In this document: positions 16,653-39,617 of the stretch, in pieces | How positions within the stretch are numbered: position 1 is the first letter of the stretch | How the letters are laid out: each line of letters opens with the position of its first letter | Assembly: GCF_006064855.1 (NCBI RefSeq) | Contig: NZ_CP040754.1 | Location: 62,001-126,000 of the forward strand | Source of the DNA: Sulfitobacter sp. BSw21498 | GTDB lineage: Bacteria > Pseudomonadota > Alphaproteobacteria > Rhodobacterales > Rhodobacteraceae | Direction of reading: 5' to 3' | Length of the DNA stretch: 64,000 nt | Program-made: the position numbers and the translations under genes | Notes under the pieces: model-generated | The model's database searches: none | The model's input: only the letters and a program-made list of their open reading frames with translations | What the model was told of the DNA's origin: nothing

Positions 16653-16668
16653 TCTAACATTTGTTAGA
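16653..16668 (-). promoter_or_regulatory. Operator palindrome 1 (TCTAACA-TT-TGTTAGA)
   Basis: A perfect 7-bp inverted repeat with a 2-base centre. On the - strand it fills the space between a possible -35 (TTTGGA, 16673-16678) and -10 (TAGAAA, 16651-16656) with a 16-base spacer, just upstream of the transglutaminase-like gene at 16620. The same palindrome recurs at four other promoters in the window. Bound protein would block RNA polymerase, so repression is inferred. Confidence 0.75.
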
Positions 16669-16722
16669 TTATTCCAAACAGCGTCAGCCGTCAACCTATT
16701 CTGACGCCTCAGCGACCACTAT

Positions 16723-17841
16723 TTACAACCCAAACTCGGCATTTTGCTCACCCAGATCGGGCGCGGCGCGACTGTCGGCGACTGCCCCGCGAAATTCTGG
16801 TGCAATCGGCAAAGGCAGTGCCGGAACTTGCTCGCCCCCAACCGAAACCACCCGCCCGAACGTGTCGCGCGCCGTGAAATGCGGATCGGCTGCGGCCTCG
16901 GCCGGTGTCTTGACAATGGTGCAGCAGCAATCCGCCGCTTCCAGCAATGGTGCCCAATGAGCAGATGGTTTGACCACAATCCGGCGCGCGACCTCGGCCT
17001 TTGTCGCCGCTGGATCGGCAAGGTCATCGCGCAGGTCCCGCGGCAGGTCGATGACATTGCAAAATGCGTCCCAGAATTTCTGCTCCAGCGCCCCGACCGC
17101 AACCTGTCGGCCGTCTGATGCCGAATAGAGCCTGTAACGTGCCCTGCCCCCAGTCAGCCTGTCACCGCCATTTTCAATAGGCTCGCCCGCGATGACCCCC
17201 TTGGCGTGCGCCCAATAGGCGAAGGCAAACGCGCCCTCAGACATGGCGATATCCAGATGGACGCCTTGCCCGGTCTTGTCGCGCTGGCGCAGCGCAAGCA
17301 GGATATTCATGATTGCCGGATAGGTTCCCCCGCCGATATCGGCGATCAGACCAAACGGTGCGGTCGGACTGTCAACCGAACCTGAACTAAGCGACAGGAC
17401 ACCCGCATCCCCAACATAGTTCATGTCATGCCCGGCAACGTCTCGTTTCGGGCCGCTCTGGCCGTACCCTGTTATTGAACAATAGATGATTTTGGAGTTA
17501 AGCGTCCTGACCGCATCATACCCCAGTCCCAACCGTTCCATGACGCCAGGACGGAATTGCTCGACGATAACATCGGCCTTTTCGATTAGCGACCGCAAAC
17601 TGGCCACAGCCCCTTCCGCCTTGAGGTCCAGCGCGATGCTTTTCTTGCCCCGGTTCAGGATAGCATAGCCCAGACTGCGGCCCTCGATCATTGGCTCTGT
17701 CAGGCGCATGTCTTCGCCGGAGCCCGGACGCTCCAGTTTGATGACCTCCGCCCCGGCTTCGGCCAGCATCAGCGTGGCCATCGGACCGGGCAAAAGTGTG
17801 CTAAAATCCAGCACCAGAATATCGTCAAGCGGTTGTGTCAA
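16723..17841 (-). CDS. Alpha-methylacyl-CoA racemase-like class III family protein
   Basis: A 372-residue member of the CaiB/BaiF fold. Rather than the transferase aspartate it has GHDMNYVG near residue 138, LIADIGGG after it, and EQKFWDAF further on. These match the His126, Asp156 and Glu241 regions of alpha-methylacyl-CoA racemase, which interconverts 2R and 2S methyl-branched acyl-CoAs before dehydrogenation. This fits degradation of isoprenoid or steroid side chains. It lies downstream of the hydratase-2 and aldolase genes and upstream of the operator at 16653. Confidence 0.83.
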   Translation of the reverse strand: MTQPLDDILVLDFSTLLPGPMATLMLAEAGAEVIKLERPGSGEDMRLTEPMIEGRSLGYAILNRGKKSIALDLKAEGAVASLRSLIEKADVIVEQFRPGVMERLGLGYDAVRTLNSKIIYCSITGYGQSGPKRDVAGHDMNYVGDAGVLSLSSGSVDSPTAPFGLIADIGGGTYPAIMNILLALRQRDKTGQGVHLDIAMSEGAFAFAYWAHAKGVIAGEPIENGGDRLTGGRARYRLYSASDGRQVAVGALEQKFWDAFCNVIDLPRDLRDDLADPAATKAEVARRIVVKPSAHWAPLLEAADCCCTIVKTPAEAAADPHFTARDTFGRVVSVGGEQVPALPLPIAPEFRGAVADSRAAPDLGEQNAEFGL

Positions 17842-17853
17842 ATGTCTCTCTCC

Positions 17854-18711
17854 TCAGGCAAGCCTTGCAGCGCCATTGTTCAGCACCACCACGTTACGTT
17901 CGGGTACCACTGCTCGAAACCGAACCTCTGTGCCGTCCCGCCAGATTTCGAAGCGCACAGTTTCACCGGGGTAAACCGGCGCGGAAAAACGCACATCCAA
18001 ACCGGTCAGGCGGCTTGCATCATAGTCGCAGATCGTCTTCAAGATCGCTCGGCAGCCCAGACCATAGGTTGCCAGACCATGAAGGATCGGACGGTCAAAC
18101 CCCACCGATCTCGCAACCGCCGGGTCGGCATGAAGTGGGTTGTAATCACCGCTCAGTCGGTAAATCAGCGCTTGGCGCGGCAGTGTGGTCAGATCGCAAA
18201 TATGGTCCGGTGCCCGATCCGGCAACGTAGCCGGAATAGGCCCAGCAATCTTCTCACCACCGAAGCCGCCATCACCACGCGCAAAGGTCGACATCGAAAC
18301 CCGCGCCAGCGTCTCATTGCTGGCCGCGTCAATGATATCGCGGCTGATATGAAGCACCGCGCCCTTGCCTTCGCCCTTGTCAGAAATATGATCAATCCGG
18401 GTGCGCCCGATCACCTTACCCTCGACAGGCAGGGGCTTGAACACATCCAACCATTGTTCACCGTGCAGGACCTTTTTCCATTCGACCCCTGTGCGCGGGT
18501 CGCTCAGCCAGAAACCGGGATATCCCAGAATGACGGCCATGCTTGGCGCGGCCAGCAGACCGTCTTCATAGACATAGGCCAGTTCTTTTTCATCGTTTGG
18601 GTCCTCTCCGAACCCCAGACCAAGGGCATAAAGCATCGTGTCCCGCTTGGTATAGCTGTGCTCCAGGTCTTTGAATTCCCAAGCGTTCAGCGCATCAATA
18701 TCCAAAGGCAT
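17854..18711 (-). CDS. Hydratase-2-like MaoC protein (double hot-dog)
   Basis: A 285-residue protein starting at ATG 18711 (MPLDIDALN) after AAGGAA; longer reading upstream would enter the aldolase gene. The C-terminal hot-dog has YRLSGDYNPLHADPAVARS and RPILHGLATYG, the hydratase-2 motif of peroxisomal multifunctional enzyme 2, which makes (3R)-hydroxyacyl-CoA from 2E-enoyl-CoA of branched or sterol side chains. The N-terminal half resembles the substrate-binding half of the same enzyme. It lies 22 bases after the aldolase gene. Confidence 0.85.
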   Translation of the reverse strand: MPLDIDALNAWEFKDLEHSYTKRDTMLYALGLGFGEDPNDEKELAYVYEDGLLAAPSMAVILGYPGFWLSDPRTGVEWKKVLHGEQWLDVFKPLPVEGKVIGRTRIDHISDKGEGKGAVLHISRDIIDAASNETLARVSMSTFARGDGGFGGEKIAGPIPATLPDRAPDHICDLTTLPRQALIYRLSGDYNPLHADPAVARSVGFDRPILHGLATYGLGCRAILKTICDYDASRLTGLDVRFSAPVYPGETVRFEIWRDGTEVRFRAVVPERNVVVLNNGAARLA

Positions 18712-18733
18712 TTCCGGTTTTTCCTTGCTTAAA

Positions 18734-19885
18734 TCAAACGGTGCTGGCCGCGCCGAGAATGGCCGTAACTTGGCTAGACAATACCCCACCATTGCCATGC
18801 GCCAGCGCCAGCTCCACGTTATCCTGTTGCAACCCCGGCGCATCACCTCTGATCTGGCGTGCGGCCTCGATCACCGTGAAGATGCCGTACATTCCGGGGT
18901 GCACACATGACAGCCCACCGCCATTGGTGTTGACTGGCAACGCCCCGCCCGGCGCGATCCGGCCATCGGCAACAAATCCGCCGCCTTCGCCCTTGGCGCA
19001 GAACCCGAGATCTTCGAGAAACAGGATGGTGTTGATGGTAAACGCATCATACAGCTCAACGACGTCGATATCGCCCGGCGTCACCCCGGCCATCGCAAAG
19101 GCACGTTTGCCGGAGTCGCGCGCCGCCGTAACCGTGAAATCCTGCATTTGCGAGATTTGCCGATGGCTGCTGGCCGCCGCAGACCCCAGGACATAGACTG
19201 GTGCCTTGGGGAAATCCCGCGCCCGATCGGCCCGCACCATCACGATGGCACCACCGCCATCGGTCACTAGGCAACAATCGCGCGTGGTCAGCGGATCGCC
19301 CACCATACGCGCACCCAGTACATCTTCGCGGGTCAACGCGTCGCGCTCAAAGGCTTCGGGATTATGCCGGGCCCAGGCGCGTGCCGCAACGGCTACGTCG
19401 GCCAGTTGTTCGCGTGTCGTGCCATATTCATACATATGCCGCGCCGCAGCCATCGCATATGCCGAGATCGGATAGCGCGGGTTATACAGCCCTTCGTAGG
19501 GCGGCAGCTTTGACGCGGTCACAAGCCGCCCTGACGCCGTACGCTGATTGGATCCGTAACAGATCAGCGCCACATCACAAAGCCCAGCCTGCAACGCCAG
19601 TGTCGCCGAGGTCAGATAGTTCACAAACGACGAACCGCCCGTCATCGTGCCATCGACATAGCGCGGCTGAATCCCCAGATATTCGGCCGCCATGAGGACC
19701 GGCATGGCATCTTCCATCATGGTGCAGAACAGACCATCGACATCGCTCAGCTTCAGTCCGGCATCGTCCAGCGCCGCGAGTGCTGATTGCGCCATAATGT
19801 CATAGGCCGAAAACCCCGGTGCCTCGCCAAAACCTGCATGCCCCACGCCGACGATCGCGGATTTTCCGCGCAATTGATCAACCAT
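18734..19885 (-). CDS. Thiolase-fold aldolase (SCP-x/Ltp2-type)
   Basis: A 383-residue thiolase-superfamily protein. The nucleophile region reads TMTGGSSFVNYL, so the cysteine of true thiolases is missing, while VVELYDAFTINTILFLEDLGF and GGGLSCVHPGMYG are kept. This pattern fits the Ltp2/Sal-type retro-aldolases that cut tertiary beta-hydroxyacyl-CoAs in steroid side-chain degradation, which work in complex with a DUF35 protein. A DUF35 gene sits immediately upstream (3-base gap). A carrier or degenerate thiolase role cannot be excluded. Confidence 0.8.
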   Translation of the reverse strand: MVDQLRGKSAIVGVGHAGFGEAPGFSAYDIMAQSALAALDDAGLKLSDVDGLFCTMMEDAMPVLMAAEYLGIQPRYVDGTMTGGSSFVNYLTSATLALQAGLCDVALICYGSNQRTASGRLVTASKLPPYEGLYNPRYPISAYAMAAARHMYEYGTTREQLADVAVAARAWARHNPEAFERDALTREDVLGARMVGDPLTTRDCCLVTDGGGAIVMVRADRARDFPKAPVYVLGSAAASSHRQISQMQDFTVTAARDSGKRAFAMAGVTPGDIDVVELYDAFTINTILFLEDLGFCAKGEGGGFVADGRIAPGGALPVNTNGGGLSCVHPGMYGIFTVIEAARQIRGDAPGLQQDNVELALAHGNGGVLSSQVTAILGAASTV

Positions 19886-19888
19886 GGT

Positions 19889-20266
19889 TCATTCCTCCAC
19901 CGGCTTACACAGCACGGCAGGAACACCGTCAATTTCACCGACAAAGGCCGTGACCGGCAACCCGATCGTCACCTCGGCAGGAGAGATTTCATCGACCCGG
20001 CTCATCATCCGCACCCCCTCAGCCAGTTCAACCATGCAAACGTTATAGTCACCCCCACGCTCAGGCTTTCGCCGCACGGTGGTCGTGGTGTGAACGATAC
20101 CGCCGCAGGATGCCGGGTGCCATGTCAAGGACTGCCCTTTGCAATGTGGGCACAAAACGCGCGGGAAAAAAATGAACTTTTTGCAATCATTACATTGCTG
20201 CAAGTTGATCTGCCCCTTTGCCAATCCGTCCCGGAAGGTTTTATCCGGCCCCTGATTTTCCGGCAT
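19889..20266 (-). CDS. DUF35 OB-fold/zinc-ribbon protein, partner of the aldolase
   Basis: A 125-residue protein with an N-terminal zinc ribbon (CNDC and CPHC, 13 residues apart) and a C-terminal OB fold. DUF35 proteins bind thiolase-fold aldolases and are needed for their folding or activity, as described for Ltp2 with the ChsH2 DUF35 domain. Gene order and the 3-base gap to the aldolase gene support a complex. It is the first gene of its operon, with the shared operator at 20310-20325 just upstream. Confidence 0.85.
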   Translation of the reverse strand: MPENQGPDKTFRDGLAKGQINLQQCNDCKKFIFFPRVLCPHCKGQSLTWHPASCGGIVHTTTTVRRKPERGGDYNVCMVELAEGVRMMSRVDEISPAEVTIGLPVTAFVGEIDGVPAVLCKPVEE

Positions 20267-20309
20267 TTCGACTGCTCCTTCGATAGATCGAATCTAAGTT
20301 GCCTTCAAT

Positions 20310-20325
20310 TCTAACACCTGTTAGA
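20310..20325. promoter_or_regulatory. Operator palindrome 2 with divergent promoters
   Basis: A perfect TCTAACA-CC-TGTTAGA palindrome in the 100-bp gap between the DUF35 gene (-) and a CoA transferase gene (+). On + a possible -35 TTGCCT (20299-20304) and -10 TAGATT (20322-20327) flank it. On - a possible TTGCAT (plus 20330-20335) and TAGAAT (plus 20308-20313) do the same with a 16-base spacer. The two promoters would face each other across one operator, so one bound dimer could shut both. Confidence 0.78.
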
Positions 20326-20366
20326 TTTAATGCAACTCTCCACCTCAATAAAAGCGGGTTCTAACC

Positions 20367-21533
20367 ATGAGCATCAGTAAAGACGGCATGCTTGCAGGCG
20401 TCAGGGTCATCGACATGACGTCGGTTGTATTCGGCCCCCTTGCCACGCAAATGCTTGGTGATCTGGGTGCCGATGTCATCAAGGTCGAAAGCCCCGAAGG
20501 CGACATGCTGCGTCAGGTGCAACCTGCCCGGACGCCTGGTATGGGTGCGGCATTTCTGGGCACAAATCGCAACAAGCGCAGCATTACCCTTGATCTGAAA
20601 ACCCAAAAGGACCGCGCCGCTTTGCTTGACCTGCTGGATGATGCGGATGTATTTGTATCCAGCGTCCGCCCCGCTGCGCTGGCGCGGCTGTCCCTTTCCC
20701 CCGAGACCCTGCGCGAACGCAATCCCAAGCTGATTACCGTGGCCGCAGTCGGGTTCGGCTCGGACGGGCCGTATCGCAACAAGCCCGCCTATGACGACAG
20801 CGTCCAGTCTGTCTCCGGCATGGCCGGACTGGCCACAATGTGCAACCCGGACAATCCACCTGCCTATGCTCCCACGATTATCGCCGACAAGCTTGGCGGG
20901 GTCACTGCGGCCTATGCGATCATGGCCGCGCTGTATCACCGCGAACGGACCGGGCAGGCCCAACATGTCGAGGTTCCGATGTTCGAAACACTGGCCTCCT
21001 TCCTACTGGTCGAACATATGGCCGAGGCAACATTTGAATCCGAACCGCAAAGCTTCGGATACCAACGGATGCTGGTCCCGCATCGACGCCCAGTAAAAAC
21101 CGCAGATGGCTATATCACCATCCTGCCCTACTCGAATGCGCAATGGGCGCGGTTTTTCAAAGCCGTGGGGCGCGACGACATGCTCGATCATTCCTGGGTC
21201 ACGAACATGGACGAACGCAGCCGGAATATCGGAGGGATCTATGACATGGTGGCGCAAATAGCGACGACACGCACCACCGCCCAGTGGATTGAACTGACCG
21301 AACAAGCCGACATTCCGGCCATGCCCGTGCGGATGCTGTCAGATCTGCCGCAAGACCCCCATCTGGCCGCGACAGGATTTTTCCAAACCATCGACCATCC
21401 CACTGAAGGGGCCGTCTGGACCACCAAACCGCCCATCAAATTCTCTGCCACACCTGCGCGCCACGACATCACTCCGCCGCCTGCACTGGGTGAGCACAAC
21501 CCTGACATCCTGAAACGGCCCAAGCCCAAGTGA
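20367..21533 (+). CDS. Class III (CaiB/BaiF) CoA transferase
   Basis: A 388-residue CaiB-family protein. PAYDDSVQSVSGMAGL contains an aspartate aligned with the formyl-CoA transferase nucleophile, so it is a likely genuine CoA transferase rather than a racemase. It is a single-gene unit: the operator-promoter lies upstream and a strong bidirectional terminator lies 20 bases after the stop. No strong Shine-Dalgarno sequence is seen before ATG 20367. It may activate a growth substrate using CoA from an end product; the substrate is unknown. Confidence 0.85.
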   Translation: MSISKDGMLAGVRVIDMTSVVFGPLATQMLGDLGADVIKVESPEGDMLRQVQPARTPGMGAAFLGTNRNKRSITLDLKTQKDRAALLDLLDDADVFVSSVRPAALARLSLSPETLRERNPKLITVAAVGFGSDGPYRNKPAYDDSVQSVSGMAGLATMCNPDNPPAYAPTIIADKLGGVTAAYAIMAALYHRERTGQAQHVEVPMFETLASFLLVEHMAEATFESEPQSFGYQRMLVPHRRPVKTADGYITILPYSNAQWARFFKAVGRDDMLDHSWVTNMDERSRNIGGIYDMVAQIATTRTTAQWIELTEQADIPAMPVRMLSDLPQDPHLAATGFFQTIDHPTEGAVWTTKPPIKFSATPARHDITPPPALGEHNPDILKRPKPK

Positions 21534-21553
21534 TCAGCCGCCCCAAACCGGGA

Positions 21554-21580
21554 AAAGGCCCGCCTAACCGGCGGGCCTTT
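21554..21580. terminator. Bidirectional rho-independent terminator
   Basis: An 11-bp perfect stem (AAAGGCCCGCC pairing with GGCGGGCCTTT) around a TAACC loop. A run of A before and T after the core makes it symmetric. It lies between the convergent CoA transferase and etfA genes and can end transcripts from both sides. Confidence 0.88.
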
Positions 21581-21616
21581 AGGGTATCGTAAGGTCGGAA
21601 ATTTGGCGACCATGTA

Positions 21617-22543
21617 TCAGAGCTTTTCGAGCAGTTCAGGCACGGCCTCGAACAGATCTGCAACCAGCCCGTAATCGGCAACCTGAAAGATCGGCGCTTC
21701 TTCATCTTTGTTGATCGCGACGATGATCTTGCTGTCTTTCATCCCGGCCAGGTGCTGGATCGCGCCTGATATACCGACTGCTACATAGAGGCTAGGGGCC
21801 ACAACCTTACCTGTTTGGCCAACCTGCCAATCGTTCGGGGCATAGCCCGAATCGACCGCAGCGCGGGATGCGCCAACAGCCGCGCCCAGCTTGTCCGCCA
21901 GCTTTTCGATCAGCGCAAAGTCTTCTTCAGACCCAACACCGCGGCCACCGGACACAACAACACCGGCCGAAGTCAGCTCGGGGCGGTCGCTTGCCGCCAC
22001 GTGGTCTTCGACCCAGGACGACAGACCGGGATCTTCAACCGCCGAGATCGTCTCGACCGAGGCAGACCCGCCGTCGCCAGCAGCATCAAATGTCGACGCG
22101 CGGAAAGTGATGACTTTCTTCGCGTCAGAAGATTTAACCGTTTGAACCGCATTGCCCGCATAGATCGGCCGCTCAAACGTATCGGCATCAATCACGCCGG
22201 AGGCGTCAGAGATGATCATCACATCCAGCAGTGCCGCAACCCGTGGCATCACGTTCTTTGCGTCTGTCGTGGCAGGGGCAACGATGTGATCGTAATCGCC
22301 CGCCATCGACACGATAAGCGCTGCCGTGGATTCCGCGAGGCGGTGACCCAGCGTGGCATCCTCGGCGACAAGCACCTTGGAAACCCCGTCGATTTTTGAC
22401 GCCGCTTCACCTGCCGCAGCAGCTGAGCCGCCACAGGCCAGTATGGTGATATCGCCCAATGCTTTGGCGGCAGTCACGGCCTTGGCCGTGGCATCCATCG
22501 CCAATTCGCCATCGGTTATTTCTGCAAGGAGTAGAACAGCCAT
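21617..22543 (-). CDS. etfA: Electron transfer flavoprotein alpha subunit
   Basis: A 308-residue ETF alpha subunit. The C-terminal FAD domain shows [35 protein letters not shown] and [21 protein letters not shown], all diagnostic. With EtfB it carries electrons from acyl-CoA dehydrogenases to ETF-ubiquinone oxidoreductase. The start overlaps etfB's stop by one base. It is the last gene of the long - strand run that starts with the SDR at 32747, and ends just before the bidirectional terminator. Placing ETF here fits the many dehydrogenases of the island. Confidence 0.95.
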
Positions 22544-23301
22544 TACACGGCCCCCGCTTCTTTAAGTTTCGCTACCAGTTCATCCACGGATGCAACCATG
22601 ATACCGGCTGCGCGCTCTGCTGGTTCAACGGTTTTCACGATCTCCAGGCGGTTGGAAACATCAACGCCGTAATCTGCCGGTGTCTTTTCATCCATCGGCT
22701 TTTTCTTTGCCTTCATGATGTTGGGCAGGGACGCATACCGTGGCTCGTTCAGGCGCAAATCAACGGTGATGACCGTGGGCATCGAAACTTCGATGGTCTG
22801 CAAACCGCCGTCCACTTCACGTGTGACTTTGGCTTTGTCGCCTGCAATCTCCACTTCGGATGCAAATGTCGCCTGCGACCACCCCATCAACGCTGCCAGC
22901 ATCTGGCCGGTCGCGTTCATGTCATTGTCGATGGCCTGCTTGCCGCACATCACCAGACCAGGCTGCTCTTCATCCACAATCGCTTTGAGGATCTTGGCAA
23001 CGGCCAGTGGTTCGATGTCGTTGTGTACGTCGTCTGTGGCGACAACGAGGATCGCGCGGTCCGCGCCCATGGCCAAAGCGGTGCGCAATGTTTCCTGAGC
23101 CTGCTTGACGCCGATGGAAACAACCACGACCTCTTCGACCTGACCGGCTTCTTTCAGACGGATCGCCTGTTCGACGGAAATTTCGTCAAACGGGTTCATC
23201 GACATTTTTACATTAGCAAGATCAACACCCGATCCGTCCGCTTTGACGCGCACTTTCACGTTGTAGTCAATCACGCGCTTTACAGGTACAAGTACCTTCA
23301 T
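22543..23301 (-). CDS. etfB: Electron transfer flavoprotein beta subunit
   Basis: A 252-residue ETF beta subunit with [19 protein letters not shown] at the start, the AMP-binding region MGADRAILV, and the recognition loop near [17 protein letters not shown] lies 9 bases before the ATG. It forms a heterodimer with EtfA. The 46-bp gap to the upstream crotonase could hold an extra promoter, but no clear -35/-10 pair and no copy of the shared operator were found in it. Confidence 0.95.
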
Positions 23302-23347
23302 GGGCGATAATCTCCTCTTGAGGTTAGTATATTTTGAATCTCTTTAC

Positions 23348-24130
23348 TCAGCAGTCTCGGAATCTCGGCTTTCGTTTCTCTGTGAAAGCATTCATTGCTT
23401 CGGGAAAATCATGCGCGCCAAGCAGAATGGTCTGCGCGCGGCACTCAATGTCCAAAGCTTCCTCGAAAGAGCACTCCGCGGCCTCACGCATCACGCGTTT
23501 GCTGCAATTCATTCCAAACATCGGGTTTGCTGCCATCTCGGTCGCGATTGCGATCGCGGCAGCTTCGGTTTCGTCAGCGGGCACACATTCTTCTACTGCC
23601 CGCATCTGATGGGCCGTCTTGCCCGAAATCTCACGCCCGGTCAGCACCAGAAGGCGTGCCGCGCCTGACCCCATGCGCTGTTGCAACAGCCAGCTCGATC
23701 CCGTGTCGGGGCAGCCACCCACTTTTGAAAAAACTTGGCAGAACCGCGCATCTTCAGCGGCGACAATCACGTCGGCACACAGCGCCAAACTCATTCCTGC
23801 GCCATAGGCGACGCCATTCACGGCAGCAATCAGCGGCTTGTTGAACCCGTATGCCGCGCGCCCGCCACTATGCACCTTGTCAACCATCTCATAGGTTGCA
23901 CGCGCGCCTTTTGCGATCTCGGACCGAAACCCGACAAGATCACCGCCGCTTGAAAAATAATCGCCGCCAGTCATCACAACGGCACGCACCGCATCATCCC
24001 TTTGCGCCACATCAAGAGCCGCAATAAACTGGTCAACAAATGCCAGGCTATAAGGGTTCCGGCGCGCGGGCTGCGTGAATCGCAAGACCCCCACCCCGTT
24101 GTCGACGTCAAATCGCATAAGGTCAGACAT
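23348..24130 (-). CDS. Enoyl-CoA hydratase/isomerase family protein
   Basis: A 260-residue crotonase with oxyanion segments DYFSSGGDLVGF and VNGVAYGAGMSLALCADVI. The active-site stretch FCQVFSKVGGCPDTGSSW lacks the two hydratase glutamates but has an aspartate as in PaaG-type isomerases (VPDSGG). Double-bond isomerisation of an enoyl-CoA is therefore more likely than hydration. It lies between another crotonase and etfB in the transporter-linked operon. Confidence 0.83.
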   Translation of the reverse strand: MSDLMRFDVDNGVGVLRFTQPARRNPYSLAFVDQFIAALDVAQRDDAVRAVVMTGGDYFSSGGDLVGFRSEIAKGARATYEMVDKVHSGGRAAYGFNKPLIAAVNGVAYGAGMSLALCADVIVAAEDARFCQVFSKVGGCPDTGSSWLLQQRMGSGAARLLVLTGREISGKTAHQMRAVEECVPADETEAAAIAIATEMAANPMFGMNCSKRVMREAAECSFEEALDIECRAQTILLGAHDFPEAMNAFTEKRKPRFRDC

Positions 24131-24147
24131 ATCAAGCTCCTGGTTAC

Positions 24148-24930: not shown

Positions 24931-24992
24931 GGAATGTCCTTGAGATACGGGTTTGAGCAAAACTGGTTCGTGTTGGTTCAAACCCGGTGGAA

Positions 24993-25014: not shown

Positions 25015-25022
25015 ACGTTTTC

Positions 25023-31832: not shown

Positions 31833-31883
31833 CCGTGCGCGCCTCCCAGCAAATCAAAACTCACCATCCCGCCGTTCTCTCTC

Positions 31884-32747
31884 TCAGTCTATCTTGAAGT
31901 AATCAGGACGTCCCGTCGGCCAGGGATCACCCCACATCTGCTGACCGCCATCTATGTTTAGAACCTCTCCGGTTATAAATTTGCCCGACAGTGCCGCCAT
32001 ATAAACAACTCCTTCGGCAACATCCCATTCGTCGCCCGCCCGGCGCATGGGGTTGGATTCCTTGAACGTCGCGGCACCCTCGGCTGGATAATTTCCAAAC
32101 CCGGTACTTTCGCAGCATCCAGGTGCGACACAGTTCACACGTACACCGTAAGGTGCCCATTCAACTGCGACAGATTTGGACAGGAATATCACCCCGGCGC
32201 GTGCCGCGGCGGTATGGGCGATACCGGGCATTCCGCGCCAGACATCTGCGACGATGCTGACAATATTGCCCTGGGTTCCGGTCTCGACCCAATTTTTCGC
32301 TACCGCCTGCATCATCCACCAGGTACCATTCAGATTGGTGTCGATCACCGCGTTCCAACCTTTTATGGAAAAGTCCAAGGCCGGCTGCGGAAACTGTCCG
32401 CCTGCATTGTTGACCAGAACATGCAGCCCACCGAAACGTTCATGAACAGCGTCCACAAAGGCGGCAACCTGTTCAGGGTCGCGTATCGTCATTTCGCGCG
32501 CCATCACTTCGCCGCCAAACGAACGCAGGAATTCCGCCGCGCTTTCCAGTTTTTCAGGGTTGCGCCCACAGATCGCCAGCCGTGCGCCCAGGCGGGCGAA
32601 CAATGCCGCGATAGCCAGGCCAAGCCCGCCACCCGCACCAGTCACGACAACAGTCTGGTCCTGGAAAAGACCCAGCGCATAGACGGTATTTCGGTCCCGT
32701 AGTTCGGTTCGTGTGAACCCAAAAACCGGCTCTTGCGAGTCAGTCAT
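31884..32747 (-). CDS. Short-chain dehydrogenase, dienoyl-CoA-reductase-like
   Basis: A 287-residue SDR with TGAGGGLG and NNAGG nucleotide-binding motifs. The canonical YxxxK site is replaced: the region reads HTAAARAGV, as in 2,4-dienoyl-CoA reductases and peroxisomal enoyl-CoA reductases, which lack the tyrosine. It may reduce a double bond of an unsaturated acyl-CoA with NADPH. It shares this feature with the SDR at 42094-42945. A G-rich ribosome site precedes the ATG. It heads the long transporter-ETF operon, with operator 3 upstream. Confidence 0.8.
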   Translation of the reverse strand: MTDSQEPVFGFTRTELRDRNTVYALGLFQDQTVVVTGAGGGLGLAIAALFARLGARLAICGRNPEKLESAAEFLRSFGGEVMAREMTIRDPEQVAAFVDAVHERFGGLHVLVNNAGGQFPQPALDFSIKGWNAVIDTNLNGTWWMMQAVAKNWVETGTQGNIVSIVADVWRGMPGIAHTAAARAGVIFLSKSVAVEWAPYGVRVNCVAPGCCESTGFGNYPAEGAATFKESNPMRRAGDEWDVAEGVVYMAALSGKFITGEVLNIDGGQQMWGDPWPTGRPDYFKID

Positions 32748-32759
32748 CTTTCCCCCCCT

Positions 32760-32777
32760 GCTAGCAATTTCGCTAGC
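32760..32777. repeat. GCTAGC-N6-GCTAGC paired repeat
   Basis: Two copies of the self-complementary hexamer GCTAGC separated by AATTTC, lying between the SDR start codon (32747) and operator 3. It falls in the presumed 5' leader and could be a second regulatory site or a short hairpin. No other copy was noticed at the other operator promoters. Confidence 0.4.
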
Positions 32778-32788
32778 GTTTCAAAAAA

Positions 32789-32804
32789 CCTAACATGCGT
32801 TAGA
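32789..32804 (-). promoter_or_regulatory. Operator palindrome 3 (one mismatch)
   Basis: CCTAACA-TG-CGTTAGA on +, an imperfect copy of the shared palindrome. On the - strand it lies between a possible -35 TTGCCA (plus 32810-32815) and -10 TAGGTT (plus 32787-32792), spacer 17, directing transcription into the SDR, ABC importer, ligase, crotonases and ETF. The mismatched half-sites may give weaker repression than at the perfect copies. Confidence 0.68.
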
Positions 32805-32846
32805 TTTTTTGGCAAGATTTATGTGATCTCTCAAATTAGGTGTATT

Positions 32847-33314
32847 TTACTGAGTTGCGTTTAGCTGACGCAGCATGCGAAGCGGCTCGTAGACAATACA
32901 TTCGCTGCCATCCGCCTTGAGCACCCGGTTTCGGCTGCGCACCAGACCACGTCCCGGCCTAGATGTTAGACGGGCCTCGATAATTTCGACTTCAACGTGG
33001 ATTGTATCACCGACAAAAGTAGGCCCCTTCACACTGAAATCAGCATGAAGAAACGCCAGACCCGTGCCCTCCATCGTGTGCGTCAACAGCCCCTCGGCCA
33101 TTGCGTAAACCATCACCCCAGGCACCACCCGCCCATGCGCCGCAGCGCCGTCGCGGGCATGCTCAGTATCGGTGAACAATGATTCCGTCATCCACATCAG
33201 GTTACAGAACCCAACAAGGTCAGCCTCGGTCACTGTCCGGCTGCGGGTTTCGAAGCGGGCACCAATCTCGACTTCATCGAAATAGAAGCCGGTGGTGCGC
33301 AATACATCTTTCAT
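32847..33314 (-). CDS. MaoC-like hot-dog protein, divergent
   Basis: A 155-residue MaoC-family protein with AAAHGRVVPGVMVYAMAEGL and FSVKGPTFVGDTIHVEVEI. The usual catalytic stretch (GDxNPxHxD) reads NLMWMTESLFTD here, so the Asp-His pair of enoyl-CoA hydratases is missing. It might be a thioesterase, a non-catalytic subunit or act on another substrate. It is the last gene of the - strand operon that begins with the thiolase at 37809. Confidence 0.75.
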   Translation of the reverse strand: MKDVLRTTGFYFDEVEIGARFETRSRTVTEADLVGFCNLMWMTESLFTDTEHARDGAAAHGRVVPGVMVYAMAEGLLTHTMEGTGLAFLHADFSVKGPTFVGDTIHVEVEIIEARLTSRPGRGLVRSRNRVLKADGSECIVYEPLRMLRQLNATQ

Positions 33315-33325
33315 AGTGGCCCCTT

Positions 33326-34492
33326 TCAGTAGGATTTTGGCAGCCCAAGCGCCTTTTCGGCAATGAACGACATCAGCATATGCGGCGTCACCGGTACGAT
33401 GTGGAACAACAACGCCTCGCGGACCAGCCGCTCAACATGATATTCCTTGGCGTATCCAAAACCGCCAAACGTCATCTGGGCCGTCTGCGTCGCCTCCACT
33501 GCGGCTTCCGCTGCCAGCAGCTTTGCAGCATTCGCCTCGACACCACATGGCTCGCCCGCATCATACAGAGCCGCGGCATGCATCACCATCAGATTGGCGG
33601 ATTCGACCCTGGCCCAGGCTTTGGCAAGCGGATGCTGGATGCCCTGATTCTGCCCGATCGGACGGCCGAAGACATGTCGCTCCTTTGCATATTCCGACGC
33701 CCGTTTGATCGCGTTTCGCGCAATGCCGACGCATTCCGCCGCCACCAGTATGCGTTCGGGATTCAGACCGTGTAGGGTCTGGCGGAACCCTTGGCCTTCT
33801 TCGCCGATCATATCCTCGGCTGGAACAGGCAGCCCGTCGATGAACACCTCATTGGAATCTACCGCTTTGCGGCCCATTTTTTCGATCTCGCGCACGTCCA
33901 CAAAGGTCCGGTCCAGCGTCGTGTAAAACAGGGTCAACCCCTCGGTGGGCTTTGTAACCTCTTCCAGCGGCGTGGTGCGGGCCAACAACAGCATCTTGTG
34001 AGCCACCTGCGCGGTTGAAATCCAGACCTTCTGGCCATGCACCACATACCGGTCGCCCTGTCGGATTGCCCGTGTCTTGAGCTTTGTTGTATCCAGCCCC
34101 GTCGTCGGTTCGGTTACCGCAAAACAGGCCTTTTCGCGCCCCTCCAGAAGCGGCACCAGCATCCGCTGTTTTTGCTCCGGGGTGCCGAATTTTACCACTG
34201 GATTGAGCCCGAAAATGTTCATGTGGATGGCCGACGCACCGCTGGCACCACCGCCCGATTCCGCGATGGCCTGCATCATGATTGCCGCCTCGGTTATGCC
34301 CAGTCCGGCACCGCCGACCTCTTCCGGCAATGCGATACCCAGCCAGCCGCCATCCGCCAAAGCCTTGTGTAAGTCGTGGGGGAAGCCCCCATTGCGGTCT
34401 TTTTCCAGCCAGTATTCATCATCAAAATCGGCACAGATACGCAAAACGGTGTCGCGGATTTCCTGCTGCGCCTCAGTATACCGATAAGTCAT
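33326..34492 (-). CDS. Acyl-CoA dehydrogenase
   Basis: A 388-residue acyl-CoA dehydrogenase with AVTEPTTGLDTTKLKTRAI, HGQKVWISTAQ, GLNPERILVAAEC (likely catalytic glutamate) and FGGFGYAKEYHVERLVREA. It is the closest relative in the window of the enzyme at 9084-10247; both end in a G(M/L)P(R/K)S(F/Y) tail. It overlaps the class III transferase gene by 4 bases. Electrons should go to the EtfAB encoded 10 kb away. Confidence 0.88.
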   Translation of the reverse strand: MTYRYTEAQQEIRDTVLRICADFDDEYWLEKDRNGGFPHDLHKALADGGWLGIALPEEVGGAGLGITEAAIMMQAIAESGGGASGASAIHMNIFGLNPVVKFGTPEQKQRMLVPLLEGREKACFAVTEPTTGLDTTKLKTRAIRQGDRYVVHGQKVWISTAQVAHKMLLLARTTPLEEVTKPTEGLTLFYTTLDRTFVDVREIEKMGRKAVDSNEVFIDGLPVPAEDMIGEEGQGFRQTLHGLNPERILVAAECVGIARNAIKRASEYAKERHVFGRPIGQNQGIQHPLAKAWARVESANLMVMHAAALYDAGEPCGVEANAAKLLAAEAAVEATQTAQMTFGGFGYAKEYHVERLVREALLFHIVPVTPHMLMSFIAEKALGLPKSY

Positions 34493-35712
34493 GCTTTTTC
34501 CTCGGATTCTTGCGGCATGCCCACCACCCCTGACGAGGCCAGCGCCGCGATTTCTTGTTCGTTCAAACCCAGATCGCGTAACACTGCGTGGCTGTCGGCG
34601 GCCTCGGCCCGGCCAAGCCAGCGTACGCTTCCCGGCGTGTCTGACAGGTGCGGCACCGCGCCGACCACCCGTGTCTGTTCTCCCGCTACATCCACGATGT
34701 CGCCGCGATGGGCGATCTGCGGATGGTTCACGATATCCTCGACGCTCAAAACCCTCGCAGCAACCGCGTCGTTTTTTGTAAACTCGGCCTGCACAGTGTC
34801 AAAATCACGCGCCCCAATGAACTTCTGAAGCGCGTCAAAAACCTCGGCCATATTGGCGCTGATCCCGGCCATTGTGGCAAAGCGCGGATTGTCGGCAAAT
34901 GCATCCCCGGCCGCCGTGCGCAACAGACGCCGAGCGGTTTCTGCCCCGCCTGCGGATACCGTGACCCAGACACCGTCGCTGGTGCGGAACATACCGCCGG
35001 GGGCAAAGTCCATCGGTTGGCGAAGACCGTTGCGCAGCGGCGACACGGCCGCGCCTGTCAGCGCAGGCACGTGATAGTCGATCAGCCGCAACAGCCCCTC
35101 GAACACCGCGAGGTCGATGACCTGCCCTTTTGCGGTTCCATTGCCACGCGCGTGCAGCGCCAGCATGACACCCAGTGCGCCCATCAGCCCGGTGGTTGAA
35201 TCCGCCGCCGGAAACCCTGGATGCATCGGCGGCCCGTTGGGGTATCCCGTCAGATGTGACAATCCGCTCATGGCTTCGGCTGCGCGACCAAAGGCCGGCG
35301 TCTTTTTCATCGGGCCTTCCTGCCCATAGCCCGAAATACGCAGGATGATCAAATCCGGGTTCCATCTGTGCAACACGTCGGGTCCGATATCAGCGCGTTC
35401 CAGCACGCCGGGCCGGAAATTCTCAACTAAAACATCACTGGCTTCGACCATGCGGCGCAGAATTGCGCGTCCTTCAGGGGTCTTCCAGTTAAGCGCCAAA
35501 ATGCGTTTGTTGCGCGCCAGTGTTTTCCACCACACACCTAGCCCGTCATCCTGCGCCTTGGGGCCGAGATCGCGCATCATGTCACCGCCGCGCGGGTTTT
35601 CGACCTTGATCACCTCGGCACCGAAATCGGCCAACAAAGTCGCCGCCAGCGGTCCGGCGATCACATGACCAAGTTCGATGATACTAATGTTTTTCAACGG
35701 TCCTTGTGACAC
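34489..35712 (-). CDS. Class III (CaiB/BaiF) family protein, atypical active site
   Basis: GTG 35712 (MSQGPLKNISIIELGHVIAGP) is preferred because AAGGAG lies 9 bases upstream; an ATG at 35733 is in frame but has no ribosome site and would place the AAGGAG inside the gene. The 407-residue protein belongs to the CaiB/BaiF family. Where transferases have the nucleophilic Asp, it reads PAFGRAAEAMSG, so the aspartate is absent. A large subgroup shares this AFGxxxEAMxG pattern; its chemistry is less certain, though CoA transfer is the usual annotation. Confidence 0.8.
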   Translation of the reverse strand: MSQGPLKNISIIELGHVIAGPLAATLLADFGAEVIKVENPRGGDMMRDLGPKAQDDGLGVWWKTLARNKRILALNWKTPEGRAILRRMVEASDVLVENFRPGVLERADIGPDVLHRWNPDLIILRISGYGQEGPMKKTPAFGRAAEAMSGLSHLTGYPNGPPMHPGFPAADSTTGLMGALGVMLALHARGNGTAKGQVIDLAVFEGLLRLIDYHVPALTGAAVSPLRNGLRQPMDFAPGGMFRTSDGVWVTVSAGGAETARRLLRTAAGDAFADNPRFATMAGISANMAEVFDALQKFIGARDFDTVQAEFTKNDAVAARVLSVEDIVNHPQIAHRGDIVDVAGEQTRVVGAVPHLSDTPGSVRWLGRAEAADSHAVLRDLGLNEQEIAALASSGVVGMPQESEEKA

Positions 35713-35750
35713 GCACACACTCTCCTTGGTCATTCAACAGCGGCGGCTAT

Positions 35751-36581
35751 TTAGATTACAAAACCCCCGCCGCAGATCACATATTGCCCGGAAATGAAGT
35801 TCGATTCCGGCGCACAAAACAGATAGACAGCCCCTGCGGCTTCCTCGGGTGTGCCGACACGGCCCAGTGGAATAGACGTTTCCATCTGGCTTAACAGATC
35901 GGGGCTGACACCGACGCGGATGTCCTTGCCTTCAACCTTGATCGTGCTGTCCCCCTTGGCGCTGCCTTCGGTCAGGCGCGTGCGGATCGGGCCAAAGGCC
36001 ACGGCATTGACGTTGACCTTGTATCGGCCCCACTCTTTTGCCATCGTTCTGGTCAGTCCGATGATGCCGGCCTTGGCAGCAGAATAGTTGATCTGCCCCG
36101 CGTTGCCGCCGGTTCCGGCGATGGACGAAATATTCACAACCTTGCGAAACACTTCCTGCCCCGCTTCAGCTTCGGCGCGGGCCTTGTCGCGGAACACTGG
36201 CGCGGCGGCTCTAAGGATCTGAAAGGGTGCTGTCAGATGAACATCTATGATGGCATGCCATTGCTCATCCGTCATTTTCTGGACTACGCTGTCCCAAGTA
36301 TAGCCCGCGTTGTTAACGATTATGTCCAGCCCGCCGAAGGCATTAACGCCGGTATCAACGAACCGTTGGGCAAAGCCATCTTCGGTCACCGACCCGGCGC
36401 AGACCGCGGCCTCACCGCCCATGTCACGGATCATTTCAGCGGTTTGCGCCGCCGGATCCGCATCCAGATCGTTGACCACGATCCGCGCACCTTCGGAGGC
36501 CAATTTCAAAGCGATCTCGCGGCCAATGCCGCGTCCAGATCCGGATACCAGCGCGACGCGCCCGTCAAGCCTAGCTGTCAT
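35751..36581 (-). CDS. Short-chain dehydrogenase, 3-hydroxyacyl-CoA dehydrogenase/FabG-like
   Basis: A 276-residue classical SDR. ATG 36581 has GGGGAGG 6 bases upstream. Motifs: SGSGRGIG, NNAG, and the Ser-Tyr-Lys triad in NISSIAG and INYSAAKAG. It likely oxidises a (3R)-hydroxyacyl-CoA to the 3-ketoacyl-CoA, feeding the SCP-x-type thiolase encoded just upstream in the same operon (43-base gap). Confidence 0.83.
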   Translation of the reverse strand: MTARLDGRVALVSGSGRGIGREIALKLASEGARIVVNDLDADPAAQTAEMIRDMGGEAAVCAGSVTEDGFAQRFVDTGVNAFGGLDIIVNNAGYTWDSVVQKMTDEQWHAIIDVHLTAPFQILRAAAPVFRDKARAEAEAGQEVFRKVVNISSIAGTGGNAGQINYSAAKAGIIGLTRTMAKEWGRYKVNVNAVAFGPIRTRLTEGSAKGDSTIKVEGKDIRVGVSPDLLSQMETSIPLGRVGTPEEAAGAVYLFCAPESNFISGQYVICGGGFVI

Positions 36582-36624
36582 GTCTATCCTCCCCAACCAC
36601 AGCGTCCGTGCAAATGCGCCGCCC

Positions 36625-37809
36625 TCATACCGCCTCGTACAGCGTCACGACACAAGCGCCCCCTAGGCCCAGATTATGTTGAAGCGCCAGCCGCGCCCCC
36701 GAAACCTGCCGGGCATCGGCCGTGCCGCGCAATTGCTGCACCAGCTCGGTGCATTGCGCGAGACCCGTGGCCCCCAACGGGTGCCCTTTAGACAAAAGTC
36801 CGCCCGACGGATTGGTTACATATTTGCCGCCATAGGTATTGTCGCCATCATCAACGAACTTTCCGGCCTCGCCACGACCGCAAAGGCCAAGCGCCTCGTA
36901 GGTGATCAACTCATTATGGGCAAAACAGTCATGCAGCTCGACGACGTTGATGTCTTCGGGGCCGATGCCTGCGGCCTCATAGACCTGATTGGCGGCCTTT
37001 TTAGCCATGCTGGTGCCAACAACTTCGCGCATATCGTGGGCATTGAAGGTTTCCGGCCCGTCGGTGGTCATCGCCTGTGCCGCAATCCGGACAGAGGAAT
37101 CCAGCCCGTGTTTGTCGGCAAACGCCTTTGAACAGATAATTGCCGCCGCCGCGCCGCAGGTCGGCGGGCAAGCCATCAACCGAGTCATGACACCGGGCCA
37201 AACCACTTTGGCGGCCAGAACCTCTTCGGCGGTTACCTCAGTGCGAAACAGGGCGACCGGGTTTTTTGAGGCGTGCCGACTAGACTTGGCGCGGATCTTG
37301 GCGAATGTTTCCAGGGTGGTGCCAAACTCGTCCATATGCGCCTTGCCGGCACCGCCGAAATACCGCAGCGCCAGCGGGATCTCAGGACTGCCAACCAGAT
37401 CGTCGGTTTCGTCGTCAAACGATTGGAATGGGCTTACCCGATCCTCGAACACCGACCCGATCGCGCCAGGCTTCATCTGCTCAAATCCTAAGGCCAGGAC
37501 GCACTCGACCGCCCCACTTTCAACGGCCTGACGCGCCAGAAAAAGCGCTGATGACCCTGTGGAGCAGTTGTTGTTGACGTTCAGAATCGGAATGCCGGTC
37601 ATGCCCACTTGATACAAGGCCCGCTGACCGCAGGTGCTGTCACCATAAACATAGCCGACATAGGCCTGCTGGATCAGGTCGTAGGACAATCCGGCATCCT
37701 GCAGCGCGCTGCGGGTGGCCTTTGCCGCCATCACGTCATAGCTTTCCGACGCGCCGGGTTTCTGAAAGGGGACCATTCCGACCCCGGTTACATAAGCCTT
37801 GGTGGACAT
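36625..37809 (-). CDS. SCP-x-type thiolase
   Basis: A 394-residue thiolase of the sterol carrier protein-x group. Unlike the aldolase at 18734-19885 it keeps the nucleophile (NNNCSTGSS, Cys82), HDCFAHNE, GGLLSKGHPLGATG and the C-terminal GLGGACVV cysteine. SCP-x thiolases cleave 3-keto-acyl-CoAs with a 2-methyl branch, releasing propionyl-CoA, as in bile-acid and phytanic-acid breakdown. It is the first gene of its operon, facing the ligase gene across the operator at 37874-37889. Confidence 0.88.
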   Translation of the reverse strand: MSTKAYVTGVGMVPFQKPGASESYDVMAAKATRSALQDAGLSYDLIQQAYVGYVYGDSTCGQRALYQVGMTGIPILNVNNNCSTGSSALFLARQAVESGAVECVLALGFEQMKPGAIGSVFEDRVSPFQSFDDETDDLVGSPEIPLALRYFGGAGKAHMDEFGTTLETFAKIRAKSSRHASKNPVALFRTEVTAEEVLAAKVVWPGVMTRLMACPPTCGAAAAIICSKAFADKHGLDSSVRIAAQAMTTDGPETFNAHDMREVVGTSMAKKAANQVYEAAGIGPEDINVVELHDCFAHNELITYEALGLCGRGEAGKFVDDGDNTYGGKYVTNPSGGLLSKGHPLGATGLAQCTELVQQLRGTADARQVSGARLALQHNLGLGGACVVTLYEAV

Positions 37810-37873
37810 TGAAGCCTCCCCTGATCAAAATCAGTTTCTCGTACGTATAGGACGGAAACGGTATTGGAATTTA

Positions 37874-37889
37874 TCTAACACATGTTAGA
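37874..37889. promoter_or_regulatory. Operator palindrome 4 with face-to-face promoters
   Basis: A perfect TCTAACA-CA-TGTTAGA palindrome between the divergent thiolase and ligase genes. For + a possible -35 TTGGAA (37864-37869) and -10 TAGAAT (37886-37891), spacer 16. For - a possible -35 TTGTAA (plus 37894-37899) and -10 TAGATA (plus 37872-37877), spacer 16. Each palindrome arm supplies the TAG of one -10 element. One dimer bound here would occlude both promoters. Confidence 0.8.
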
Positions 37890-37915
37890 ATAATTACAAT
37901 AGGTGGAGAAAAGCT

Positions 37916-39520
37916 ATGTGCAAGGCCCCTCTGAACCAGTTGAGCAGCGGCACCGTAGCGTCCCTCGGGCATGCACCTCAAAGCGCATCACGGACGGATG
38001 TTTACCAGCTTTTCCGCAATCGTGGGTCAGCTTTACCAGATGCCATCGCAATCGAGGACTCTGACGAACGGACGACTTATGCCGCTTTGCTTTGTCGTGT
38101 CGACCAGCTGGCCGGGCACTTCGCGGGACTCGGCCTGAACACCGGAGAGCGAATCGCAGTATTGTCACGCAACCGACGCGAATATGTCGAGGTCCAACTG
38201 GCCGCCGCCGCCACGGGCTTGATCGTCGCTTGCCTGAACTGGCGGCTTCTGGCCGCGGAATTGCGCCATTGCGTAACTCTGGTTTCCCCGCGCCTGATTA
38301 TTACCGAACTCGATCTGCAGGAATTGCTCGACCAGACCCCGAATATCCCGACACTGACCTTGGGCCGCGAATACGAGGACGCCCTGACGCAGGCCCCCCA
38401 TTTCACCCCGGTCACACAAGACCCCGAAAACGGGCTGGTCATTCTGTATACCAGCGGCACCACTGGCCTGCCCAAGGGGGCAGTCCTAAGCCATCGAGCG
38501 ATGATTGCCCGCGCGTCAGTCTTTGCCGCCGAACTAGGCCTTGCCCCAACGGACGCATTTGTCGCTTGGGCTCCAATGTTTCATATGGCCTCGACCGATC
38601 ACGCTCTGTCCACGCTTTTGCGCGGTGGCACCGTAGTTATGATCGACGGCTATGATCCGGAAGCTATATGCAGGTCCATTGAAACGCATCGCATTGGCTG
38701 GCTGGTTCTGATCCCCGGCATGATCGAATCATTCATCGCCCATTTTAAAGAAAAAGGAATTACACCCATAGGTATTCGAGTCTGCGGTGCCATGGCAGAT
38801 CTAGTTCCGCCGCATCAGATCTCCGAGATTACCACGTTATTGAATGCGCCTTATCTGAACAGTTTTGGCTCTACCGAAACCGGGTTGCCACCCGCCACGC
38901 GCTCTACAATCCCGATTGGCGTAACGCCTCAAATCCTGTCCAAGCAAATTAGCGCATTTTGTGAAATACGTCTGGTTGACGAAACCGACCAGGACGTGCC
39001 TGTCGGCACCCCCGGAGAGCTGTTGATGCGCGGGCCGACGTTGTTTTCCGGCTATTGGAATGCAGACGCCACCAATACCGAGGCGTTTCGCGATGGTTGG
39101 TTCCACTTGGGCGACGTGTTCCGACGCAATGCAGACGGAACACTGGGTTTCGCTGACCGGGCGAAATATCTCATCAAGACCGGCGGCGAAAACGTCTACC
39201 CCGCCGAGATCGAACGCGTGCTGATGGCCGATCCCAACGTCACCGACGCAGCCGTAGTCCGGGTGCCTGACGATCGCTGGGGCGAAGCGCCGGTGGCTTT
39301 TGTCTCACGCTCTGGCGACACTGCAACCCAGGACACGCTAATGGCCGCCTGCCGCGCCTCGCTCGCGACCTACAAGTTACCCCGCGAAATTCACTTTATT
39401 GCCTTTGAGGATTTTCCAAGGTCAACCAGCGGTAAAATCCAGCGGCACGTTCTGGAATCGTCATTACGCGCCGATCCAGGGGCAATCGAATTGCAAGAGC
39501 TAACCCGACCGGAAACGTAG
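37916..39520 (+). CDS. AMP-forming acyl-CoA ligase
   Basis: A 534-residue adenylate-forming ligase preceded by AGGTGGAG. It shows YTSGTTGLPKGAVLSH (P-loop), FGSTETG, GWFHLGDVFRRNADGT and KTGGENVYPAEIE, with the C-terminal catalytic lysine segment TSGKIQR. It activates a fatty, branched or steroid-derived acid to its CoA ester. Acting as a single-gene unit with its own operator and a downstream terminator, it may be an entry-point enzyme of the regulon. Confidence 0.88.
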   Translation: MCKAPLNQLSSGTVASLGHAPQSASRTDVYQLFRNRGSALPDAIAIEDSDERTTYAALLCRVDQLAGHFAGLGLNTGERIAVLSRNRREYVEVQLAAAATGLIVACLNWRLLAAELRHCVTLVSPRLIITELDLQELLDQTPNIPTLTLGREYEDALTQAPHFTPVTQDPENGLVILYTSGTTGLPKGAVLSHRAMIARASVFAAELGLAPTDAFVAWAPMFHMASTDHALSTLLRGGTVVMIDGYDPEAICRSIETHRIGWLVLIPGMIESFIAHFKEKGITPIGIRVCGAMADLVPPHQISEITTLLNAPYLNSFGSTETGLPPATRSTIPIGVTPQILSKQISAFCEIRLVDETDQDVPVGTPGELLMRGPTLFSGYWNADATNTEAFRDGWFHLGDVFRRNADGTLGFADRAKYLIKTGGENVYPAEIERVLMADPNVTDAAVVRVPDDRWGEAPVAFVSRSGDTATQDTLMAACRASLATYKLPREIHFIAFEDFPRSTSGKIQRHVLESSLRADPGAIELQELTRPET

Positions 39521-39558
39521 ATCGTTCATGAAAGCTTCAACATTGGCAAAGATACTCT

Positions 39559-39602
39559 GCCGACGTTGCGGCTTGGCGTAACGTCGGCCCTTGATCTTTT
39601 TT
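39559..39602 (+). terminator. Probable rho-independent terminator
   Basis: A 9-bp perfect stem (GCCGACGTT at 39559-39567 with AACGTCGGC at 39580-39588) with a 12-base loop, followed within 10 bases by a run of T. It lies 39 bases after the ligase stop and just before the promoter of the next gene, insulating the two units. Confidence 0.7.
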
Positions 39603-39617
39603 CTAACATATGTTTGA
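39602..39617 (+). promoter_or_regulatory. Operator palindrome 5 (one mismatch)
   Basis: TCTAACA-TA-TGTTTGA, one base from the perfect palindrome. A possible -35 TTGATC (39591-39596) and -10 TTTGAT (39613-39618) surround it with a 16-base spacer, upstream of the dehydrogenase at 39663. The geometry matches the other four copies. It partly overlaps the T run of the preceding terminator. Confidence 0.68.

Follow-up and report, generated by a model that had tools for sequence, protein, structure and literature searches.

The TetR-family regulators FadR (Bacillus) and AibR are homodimers, and engineered single-chain Tet transactivators, with two TetR units in one chain, reportedly act as a dimer. 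KstR2 also acts as a homodimer (PMC11667970). Regulators with two TetR repeats in one chain (double TetRs) are called infrequent in the same report, which gives 204 as predicted in Actinomycetes (PMC11667970). According to that report, Mce3R of Mycobacterium tuberculosis is a double TetR-family regulator (TFR) with a structure on a nonpalindromic site (PDB 9b7y), its operators are asymmetric 25-bp sequences, its halves are related to distinct TetR subgroups, and an M1–M2 intrachain arrangement is supported (PMC11667970). A literature search, with subscription papers and preprints outside its scope, found no published alphaproteobacterial double TetR; the relevant papers that it listed concerned engineered Tet proteins and Mce3R. 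Here we describe a 16-bp palindrome, TCTAACAnnTGTTAGA, in a stretch of 64,000 nucleotides (the window) of Sulfitobacter sp. BSw21498, positions 62001–126000 of contig NZ_CP040754.1 (C2). We regard this palindrome as the likely operator of a double TetR repressor, a single chain encoded on the plasmid that would also control its own gene and is predicted to be a pseudo-dimer. The genome has 3,244,919 bases in two contigs, and C2 has 147,547 bases; position numbers are those of the window unless prefixed C2.

Perfect copies of the palindrome were found at 16653, 20310, and 37874, and a copy with one mismatch (TCTAACATATGTTTGA) at 39602, as a preliminary description of the window had reported; the copy at 32789 (CCTAACATGCGTTAGA), to which it had assigned one mismatch, carries two. 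Every copy sits a short way ahead of a gene of catabolic type, in agreement with the same description. At up to three mismatches, the window has five matches versus a mean of 0.68 and a maximum of 3 in 100 dinucleotide shuffles. When the whole genome was scanned at up to two mismatches, all eight sites fell on C2 between 47384 and 101617. The reversed pattern occurred seven times genome-wide at this threshold and not at all in 146,000 of the 147,547 C2 bases; at up to three mismatches it occurred at seven places in those 146,000 bases and the true pattern still at eight. A symmetrised 22-bp weight matrix, made from 83 distinct 22-mers of other loci (L020–L122), scored seven C2 sites at 29.5–33.9, the eighth (C2:47384) at 19.5, and the next best place at 9.0. 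The maximum was 10.0 on reversed C2 and 2.6–12.1 on ten Markov sequences. The operator is slightly longer than 16 bp, with A/T pairs on both flanks at the regulator's own promoter.

The regulator had been expected outside the window, as a TetR-family protein with a copy of the motif in its own promoter, and such a candidate was found. It is a 433-aa open reading frame (ORF) on the minus strand of C2 (C2:51803–53104), starting ca. 8.9 kb left of the window, and the site at C2:53146 lies 41 bp ahead of it; on the opposite side of this site is a divergent gene, named dehydrogenase in a relative's record. The candidate departs from the conventional TetR dimer of the preliminary description in that one open frame contains two TetR_N and two TetR_C_24 stretches (TetR_N, 112.7 bits with a cut-off of 24; TetR_C_24, 104.4 bits with a cut-off of 26.4). 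Among 8,000 candidates scored, 429 relatives were obtained at E ≤ 1e-20. Since 119 of the 120 listed have 408–486 aa, the fusion is no assembly artefact. The halves within one protein are 40–50% identical (mean 45; 27 aligned proteins). In the recognition helix, the N and C halves agree at G, S, Y, Y, and F in all 27 proteins, at H in 26, and at E in 21; in helix 2, by contrast, the two halves have different residues. A tree was built from 54 halves and 47 single TetRs; in this tree, which did not include the Mce3R sequence and for which the tool warned of long branches meeting, the N halves grouped (98/93), the C halves grouped (91/82), and both together stood apart from the singles (100/100). 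This topology fits one old duplication or fusion.

An alignment-based genome scan for double TetR kept 80 of 263 loci. The motif was located 25–106 bp before the protein match in 78 of the 80 (41 perfect, 31 with one mismatch, and 6 with two); as for the other two, L036 begins at a contig end, and in L065 the site falls 53 bp beyond the point where the match mechanically begins. All 80 loci together (1,433,722 bases) gave 175 motif matches versus 2 for the reversed pattern. After filtering at 80% ungapped identity, 30 upstream regions remained, an upper figure because L028 and L030 differ mainly by a one-base shift, and the palindrome was present in all of them. The protein and motif searches both covered a single draw of 198 genomes from the family to which the window belongs. 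Double TetR was detected at E ≤ 1e-60 in seven of these, which contained 6, 7, 7, 8, 8, 8, and 6 sites at up to one mismatch; the other 191 contained 20 such sites in 16 genomes, with a maximum of three each. Near relatives resemble one another in some of the orthologous flanks, as would be expected if the palindromes reflected chance or the shared ancestry of copied promoter DNA and were no operator. However, the palindrome is conserved across genera while flanks diverge (within those 30 regions at most), and it sits before different genes. Chance is also contradicted by the 78 of 80 loci, the co-occurrence in the 198 genomes, and the matrix scores, and we regard this explanation as extremely improbable. 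As sequence evidence, the shared sites and the motif-protein co-occurrence bear out the earlier proposal of a single regulon under one operator.

Several observations weigh against the assignment of the sites to double TetR. G131 has three conserved sites, at thiolase, OB-fold (oligonucleotide/oligosaccharide-binding), and acyl-CoA (coenzyme A) dehydrogenase genes that are targets elsewhere, and no double TetR at E ≤ 1e-8; its TetR search gave a 34% single relative only. A contig end cuts the acyl-CoA dehydrogenase of G131 on the side that carries the regulator in G138, and an assembly gap may well account for the lack. In G001 and G167, a lone perfect TCTAACATATGTTAGA lies between an HlyD-type gene and a divergent gene for a single TetR of another subfamily (TetR_C_33), and in G077 TCTAACATATGTTAGA sits in the middle of a longer inverted repeat, also perfect. 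Therefore, the sequence of the palindrome alone is not diagnostic. The G-S-x-Y-Y-H-F helix also occurs in TetR207, a single-domain paralogue encoded on C2, and in single relatives, and says little on specificity; being common among the TetRs compared, it was dropped as support for equivalent DNA-binding heads. Finally, TetR207, with a related operator, co-occurs with double TetR in six of the seven genomes, and co-occurrence alone thus cannot separate the two. The lone perfect copies of TCTAACATATGTTAGA were at L136:1586, L138:1589, and L137:1580, in three genera without double TetR.

TetR207 (C2:46737–47360, minus strand; L011:6737–7360) is encoded in the same island, upstream of carboxylase genes, and has the same C-domain family as double TetR. 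The odd site at C2:47384 (CCTAACACTTGTTAGG) is in its promoter, and the core CTAACAnnTGTTAG is common to both site types. These features, with the co-occurrence, would be in line with sites that belong to a TetR207 homodimer, double TetR being a bystander or co-regulator. However, the operator of TetR207 itself is consistently another version: its orthologues in other genera have ACCTAACAnnTGTTAGGT or close to it, sometimes as imperfect variants, with outer C/G and without the A/T flanks, and C2:47384 scores 19.5 versus 29.5–33.9 for the seven other C2 sites. Moreover, a 51% TetR207 relative is present in G031, where neither double TetR (E ≤ 1e-60) nor a canonical site (up to one mismatch) was found; we read its operator, ACCTAACGTTTGTTAGAG, as the TetR207 type. 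G061, with double TetR and seven sites, has no TetR207 match at E ≤ 1e-40, a weak point given that this genome is 91% complete and has another single TetR relative near its sites. Judged by sequence, double TetR and TetR207 can be told apart by the type of operator that each has in the promoter of its gene, and ownership of the sites by TetR207 appears very unlikely. Cross-binding is possible, and a competition of both proteins at the core, in response to two metabolites, would be consistent with the presence of the core in both site types and with the overlapping occurrence of the proteins. Since the two site types have different outer base pairs and different flanks, we consider such competition unlikely. 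TetR217 (C2:50960–51613), adjoining double TetR, was rejected as the regulator: no site was found before it at up to three mismatches, and it has a very long branch.

For double TetR as the preferred owner of the sites, a predicted model (pTM, predicted template modelling score, 0.83) matched the Mce3R single chain (PDB 9b7y) over the whole chain, and 9b7y was the sole recognised double TetR among the best 60 of 137 PDB matches. As we infer binding, repression, and stoichiometry, the chain would fold as a covalent pseudo-dimer and place its two helix-turn-helix (HTH) motifs on the two arms of one palindrome. Bound at the seven canonical C2 sites (C2:53146–101617, ca. 48 kb), it would repress a single acyl-CoA catabolic regulon by blocking as many as 11 promoters, that of its own gene among them, and a pathway intermediate, probably a CoA thioester, would release it. 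Responsiveness to CoA esters is suggested by the model's fold neighbours, FadR and AibR (solved with acyl-CoAs) and KstR2 (which acts on CoA-thioester pathways), together with the CoA-thioester enzymes of the regulon. The ligand domains differ in invariance among the 27 proteins (N, 29 of 144 positions; C, 45 of 147). On this basis, we tentatively entertain, as a doubtful extension, that with two equivalent DNA heads and diverged ligand domains one chain on one palindrome senses two different pathway intermediates and integrates them for the entire catabolic regulon of the plasmid; the duplication would then have kept two equivalent DNA-reading heads, and hence a palindromic operator.

The chains might instead pair with each other (N with N and C with C), so that four HTHs bridge two operators by looping. 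Mce3R has been reported also as a homodimer on two DNA duplexes (PMC11667970), and the thiolase upstream region has two sites 78–83 bp apart in four genomes of other genera versus one site in the window genome. On the other hand, each C2 promoter region has one palindrome at up to three mismatches, the model matches the single Mce3R chain as a whole, and for Mce3R that study supports the intrachain M1–M2 arrangement (PMC11667970). Looping by interchain dimers is, in our judgement, quite unlikely. The paired operator-like sites upstream of the thiolase (L094:9916/9998, L115:3588/3670, L117:7929/8007, and L120:593/676) may serve looping or a second promoter.

Promoters were scored in 12 directions on C2, each against 500 flank shuffles. 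In one geometry, the operator is within the spacer (16–17 bp), with TTG at -10/-11 and TAGA or TAGG at +12. This was found on both strands at 20310 and 37874, at 32789, and rightward at C2:58948. For the thiolase side of 37874, it scored second-best, the best candidate having the same TTG and an 18-bp spacer; the candidate at C2:58948 rightward was likewise second-best. At 39602, CTTGATC is located upstream and kept in several relatives, and the -10 is poor here. In the other geometry, seen at the double TetR gene, 16653, and TetR207, the operator lies over the -10/start region. The double TetR promoter is TTGCTG-17-TAAAAT here and CTTGATTCG in many relatives, and that of TetR207 is TTGACA-17-TAACAA. 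At 16653, TTGACG ca. 26 bp upstream gives a better promoter, with the palindrome reaching into its -10/start region, and TTGAC at this position is kept in the six relatives shown (6/6). The bracketing by -35 and -10 elements that had been described for all five window copies did not hold equally: it was found at 20310, 37874, and 32789 and in a poor version at 39602, and 16653 has the other geometry. The oriented flanks and scores agree with the overlapping promoters described on both strands at 20310 and 37874; "face to face" here is an antiparallel overlap of promoter-like elements, as predicted from sequence, of divergent genes. Divergent gene pairs also surround C2:53146 and C2:58948.

The numbers of the 500 flank shuffles that scored as well were 3 for TetR207, 6 for 16653, 11 for 37874 rightward, 20 for 32789, 38 for 20310 rightward, 77 for 37874 leftward, 79 for double TetR, 81 for 20310 leftward, 99 for C2:58948 rightward, and 357 for 39602. 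The scan gave no promoter candidate for C2:53146 rightward and C2:58948 leftward. Because 11–99 shuffles reached the score in seven of the 12 directions and two had no candidate, the promoter case leans on conservation over score. In the proposed mechanism, the palindrome would fill the -35/-10 spacer at several sites, one bound chain between divergent genes would cover two overlapping antiparallel promoters, and the -10/start region would be covered at 16653 and at the regulator gene itself.

The targets in the window were compared with stretches, rather than whole genomes, of the six other double-TetR genomes; one missing target case is the counted site G189:C8:125580, whose neighbourhood lies outside the stretches read. 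The perfect palindrome TCTAACATTTGTTAGA at 16653–16668 is upstream of a transglutaminase-like protein gene (15898–16635, minus), which leads a leftward run from 16635 to ca. 11142 with MaoC, two acyl-CoA dehydrogenases, an enoyl-CoA hydratase, and one ORF without a Pfam match; the site lies ahead of the orthologous gene in 6/6. The perfect palindrome TCTAACACCTGTTAGA at 20310–20325 is flanked by divergent genes whose promoter-like elements overlap in antiparallel orientation. It has on its left a ChsH2-like zinc-ribbon/OB-fold protein gene (19889–20266, minus), followed leftward by a thiolase (18734–19885), a MaoC/MFE-2 hydratase (17854–18846), and a family III CoA-transferase (16723–17841). 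On its right is another CoA-transferase family III gene (20367–21533, plus). The OB-fold side is conserved in 5/6 and in G131; in the five, the opposite side holds a CoA-transferase that is matched best on C2 by a paralogue (44%, or 61% over a single cut piece), and in G061 the CoA-transferase side (47%) alone was seen. The distance between the sites at 16653 and 20310 is 3,657 bp here, 3,660–3,663 bp in G138, G153, G161, G189, and G044, and 2,326 bp in G061.

The site with two mismatches at 32789–32804 is upstream of a short-chain dehydrogenase gene (31884–32747, minus), the first gene ahead of a leftward run with a branched-chain-type ABC (ATP-binding cassette) transporter, an acyl-CoA ligase, enoyl-CoA hydratases, and electron transfer flavoprotein (ETF); it is conserved in 5/6. 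The perfect palindrome TCTAACACATGTTAGA at 37874–37889, where the promoter-like elements of divergent genes likewise overlap in antiparallel orientation, separates a thiolase/lipid-transfer protein gene (36625–37809, minus; PRK08256 over cut-off) from an acyl-CoA ligase (AMP-binding) gene (37916–39520, plus). It precedes the orthologous thiolase in 5/6 and in G131, often as the one-mismatch TCTACCATTTGTTAGA; conservation of the ligase side was not seen in the stretches. The site at 39602–39617 is upstream of an acyl-CoA dehydrogenase ORF listed as 39624–40877 (plus), the start of which is likely the in-frame ATG near 39663, ca. 45 bp past the operator; it is conserved in 4/6 and in G131. Outside the window, C2:58948, between divergent genes of the 2,4-dienoyl-CoA reductase type and for acyl-CoA dehydrogenase, recurs in 5/6, and the regulator's own site is kept in 6/6. 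Other genomes have sites without a C2 counterpart (e.g., L096:6580, L106:10952, and L119:11274), indicating that the regulons are not identical. The ORFs 10207–11106, 11142–12377, and 32847–33314, among the catabolic genes, gave no Pfam match at E ≤ 1e-8.

The regulon comprises acyl-CoA ligases, acyl-CoA dehydrogenases, hydratases, family III CoA-transferases, and lipid-transfer-type thiolases, as well as ETF and an ABC transporter of the branched-chain type. Downstream of double TetR and TetR217, on the strand of double TetR, are the large and small subunits of a B12-dependent acyl-CoA mutase (C2:48832–51075), the large subunit having 2-hydroxyisobutyryl-CoA mutase as its nearest PDB structure; as a substrate clue, this likeness was not decisive. 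As substrates, a steroid or bile acid side chain was considered on account of the ChsH2-like OB protein, the lipid-transfer thiolase, and an acyl-CoA dehydrogenase without a middle-domain match, and branched or isoprenoid acids on account of the two biotin carboxylase systems and a 3-hydroxy-3-methylglutaryl-CoA (HMG-CoA)-lyase-like gene; neither set of clues was decisive. The island contains two carboxyltransferase/biotin carboxylase pairs (1562–5201 and C2:42347–46740), and the HMG-CoA-lyase-like gene is at 5198–6157. Double TetR occurs in 38 plasmid records, including 21 of Pseudosulfitobacter, many of them near-copies; in NZ_CP022419.1, typed as conjugative, the regulator is 99.8% identical. 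A TrbL/VirB6 conjugation protein gene (56652–57728) shows that the island's replicon has transfer genes.

The system represents a double TetR family in Alphaproteobacteria with a palindromic operator, seven canonical sites on one replicon, and targets kept across genera, and it provides a candidate regulator and regulon for an acyl-CoA catabolic island of marine plasmids. It allows us to ask why TetR dimers become covalent, whether two ligand sites act independently of each other, and by what means a single bound chain would control two promoters that overlap. Among single-domain TetRs, TetR207 shares the core CTAACAnnTGTTAG and the C-domain family with double TetR and differs in its outer operator. 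KstR2, FadR (Bacillus), and AibR, which serve CoA-thioester pathways, have ca. 200 residues, in contrast to the double-length chain here. Unlike the man-made single-chain Tet transactivators, double TetR is natural and its halves have diverged. Like Mce3R, it has two complete TetR repeats per chain and, as modelled, the same whole-chain fold. In contrast, identity with Mce3R is 15–16%, and the halves here are 40–50% identical and group together against the single relatives included. A nonpalindromic operator, a property of Mce3R that is perhaps not general to double TFRs, was not found here; the operator is palindromic versus the asymmetric one of Mce3R, and a regulon of several operons, in Alphaproteobacteria, is served by a single type of site. 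The kind of regulator thus has a precedent in Mce3R, and what is new is the host group, the symmetry of the operator, and the regulon.

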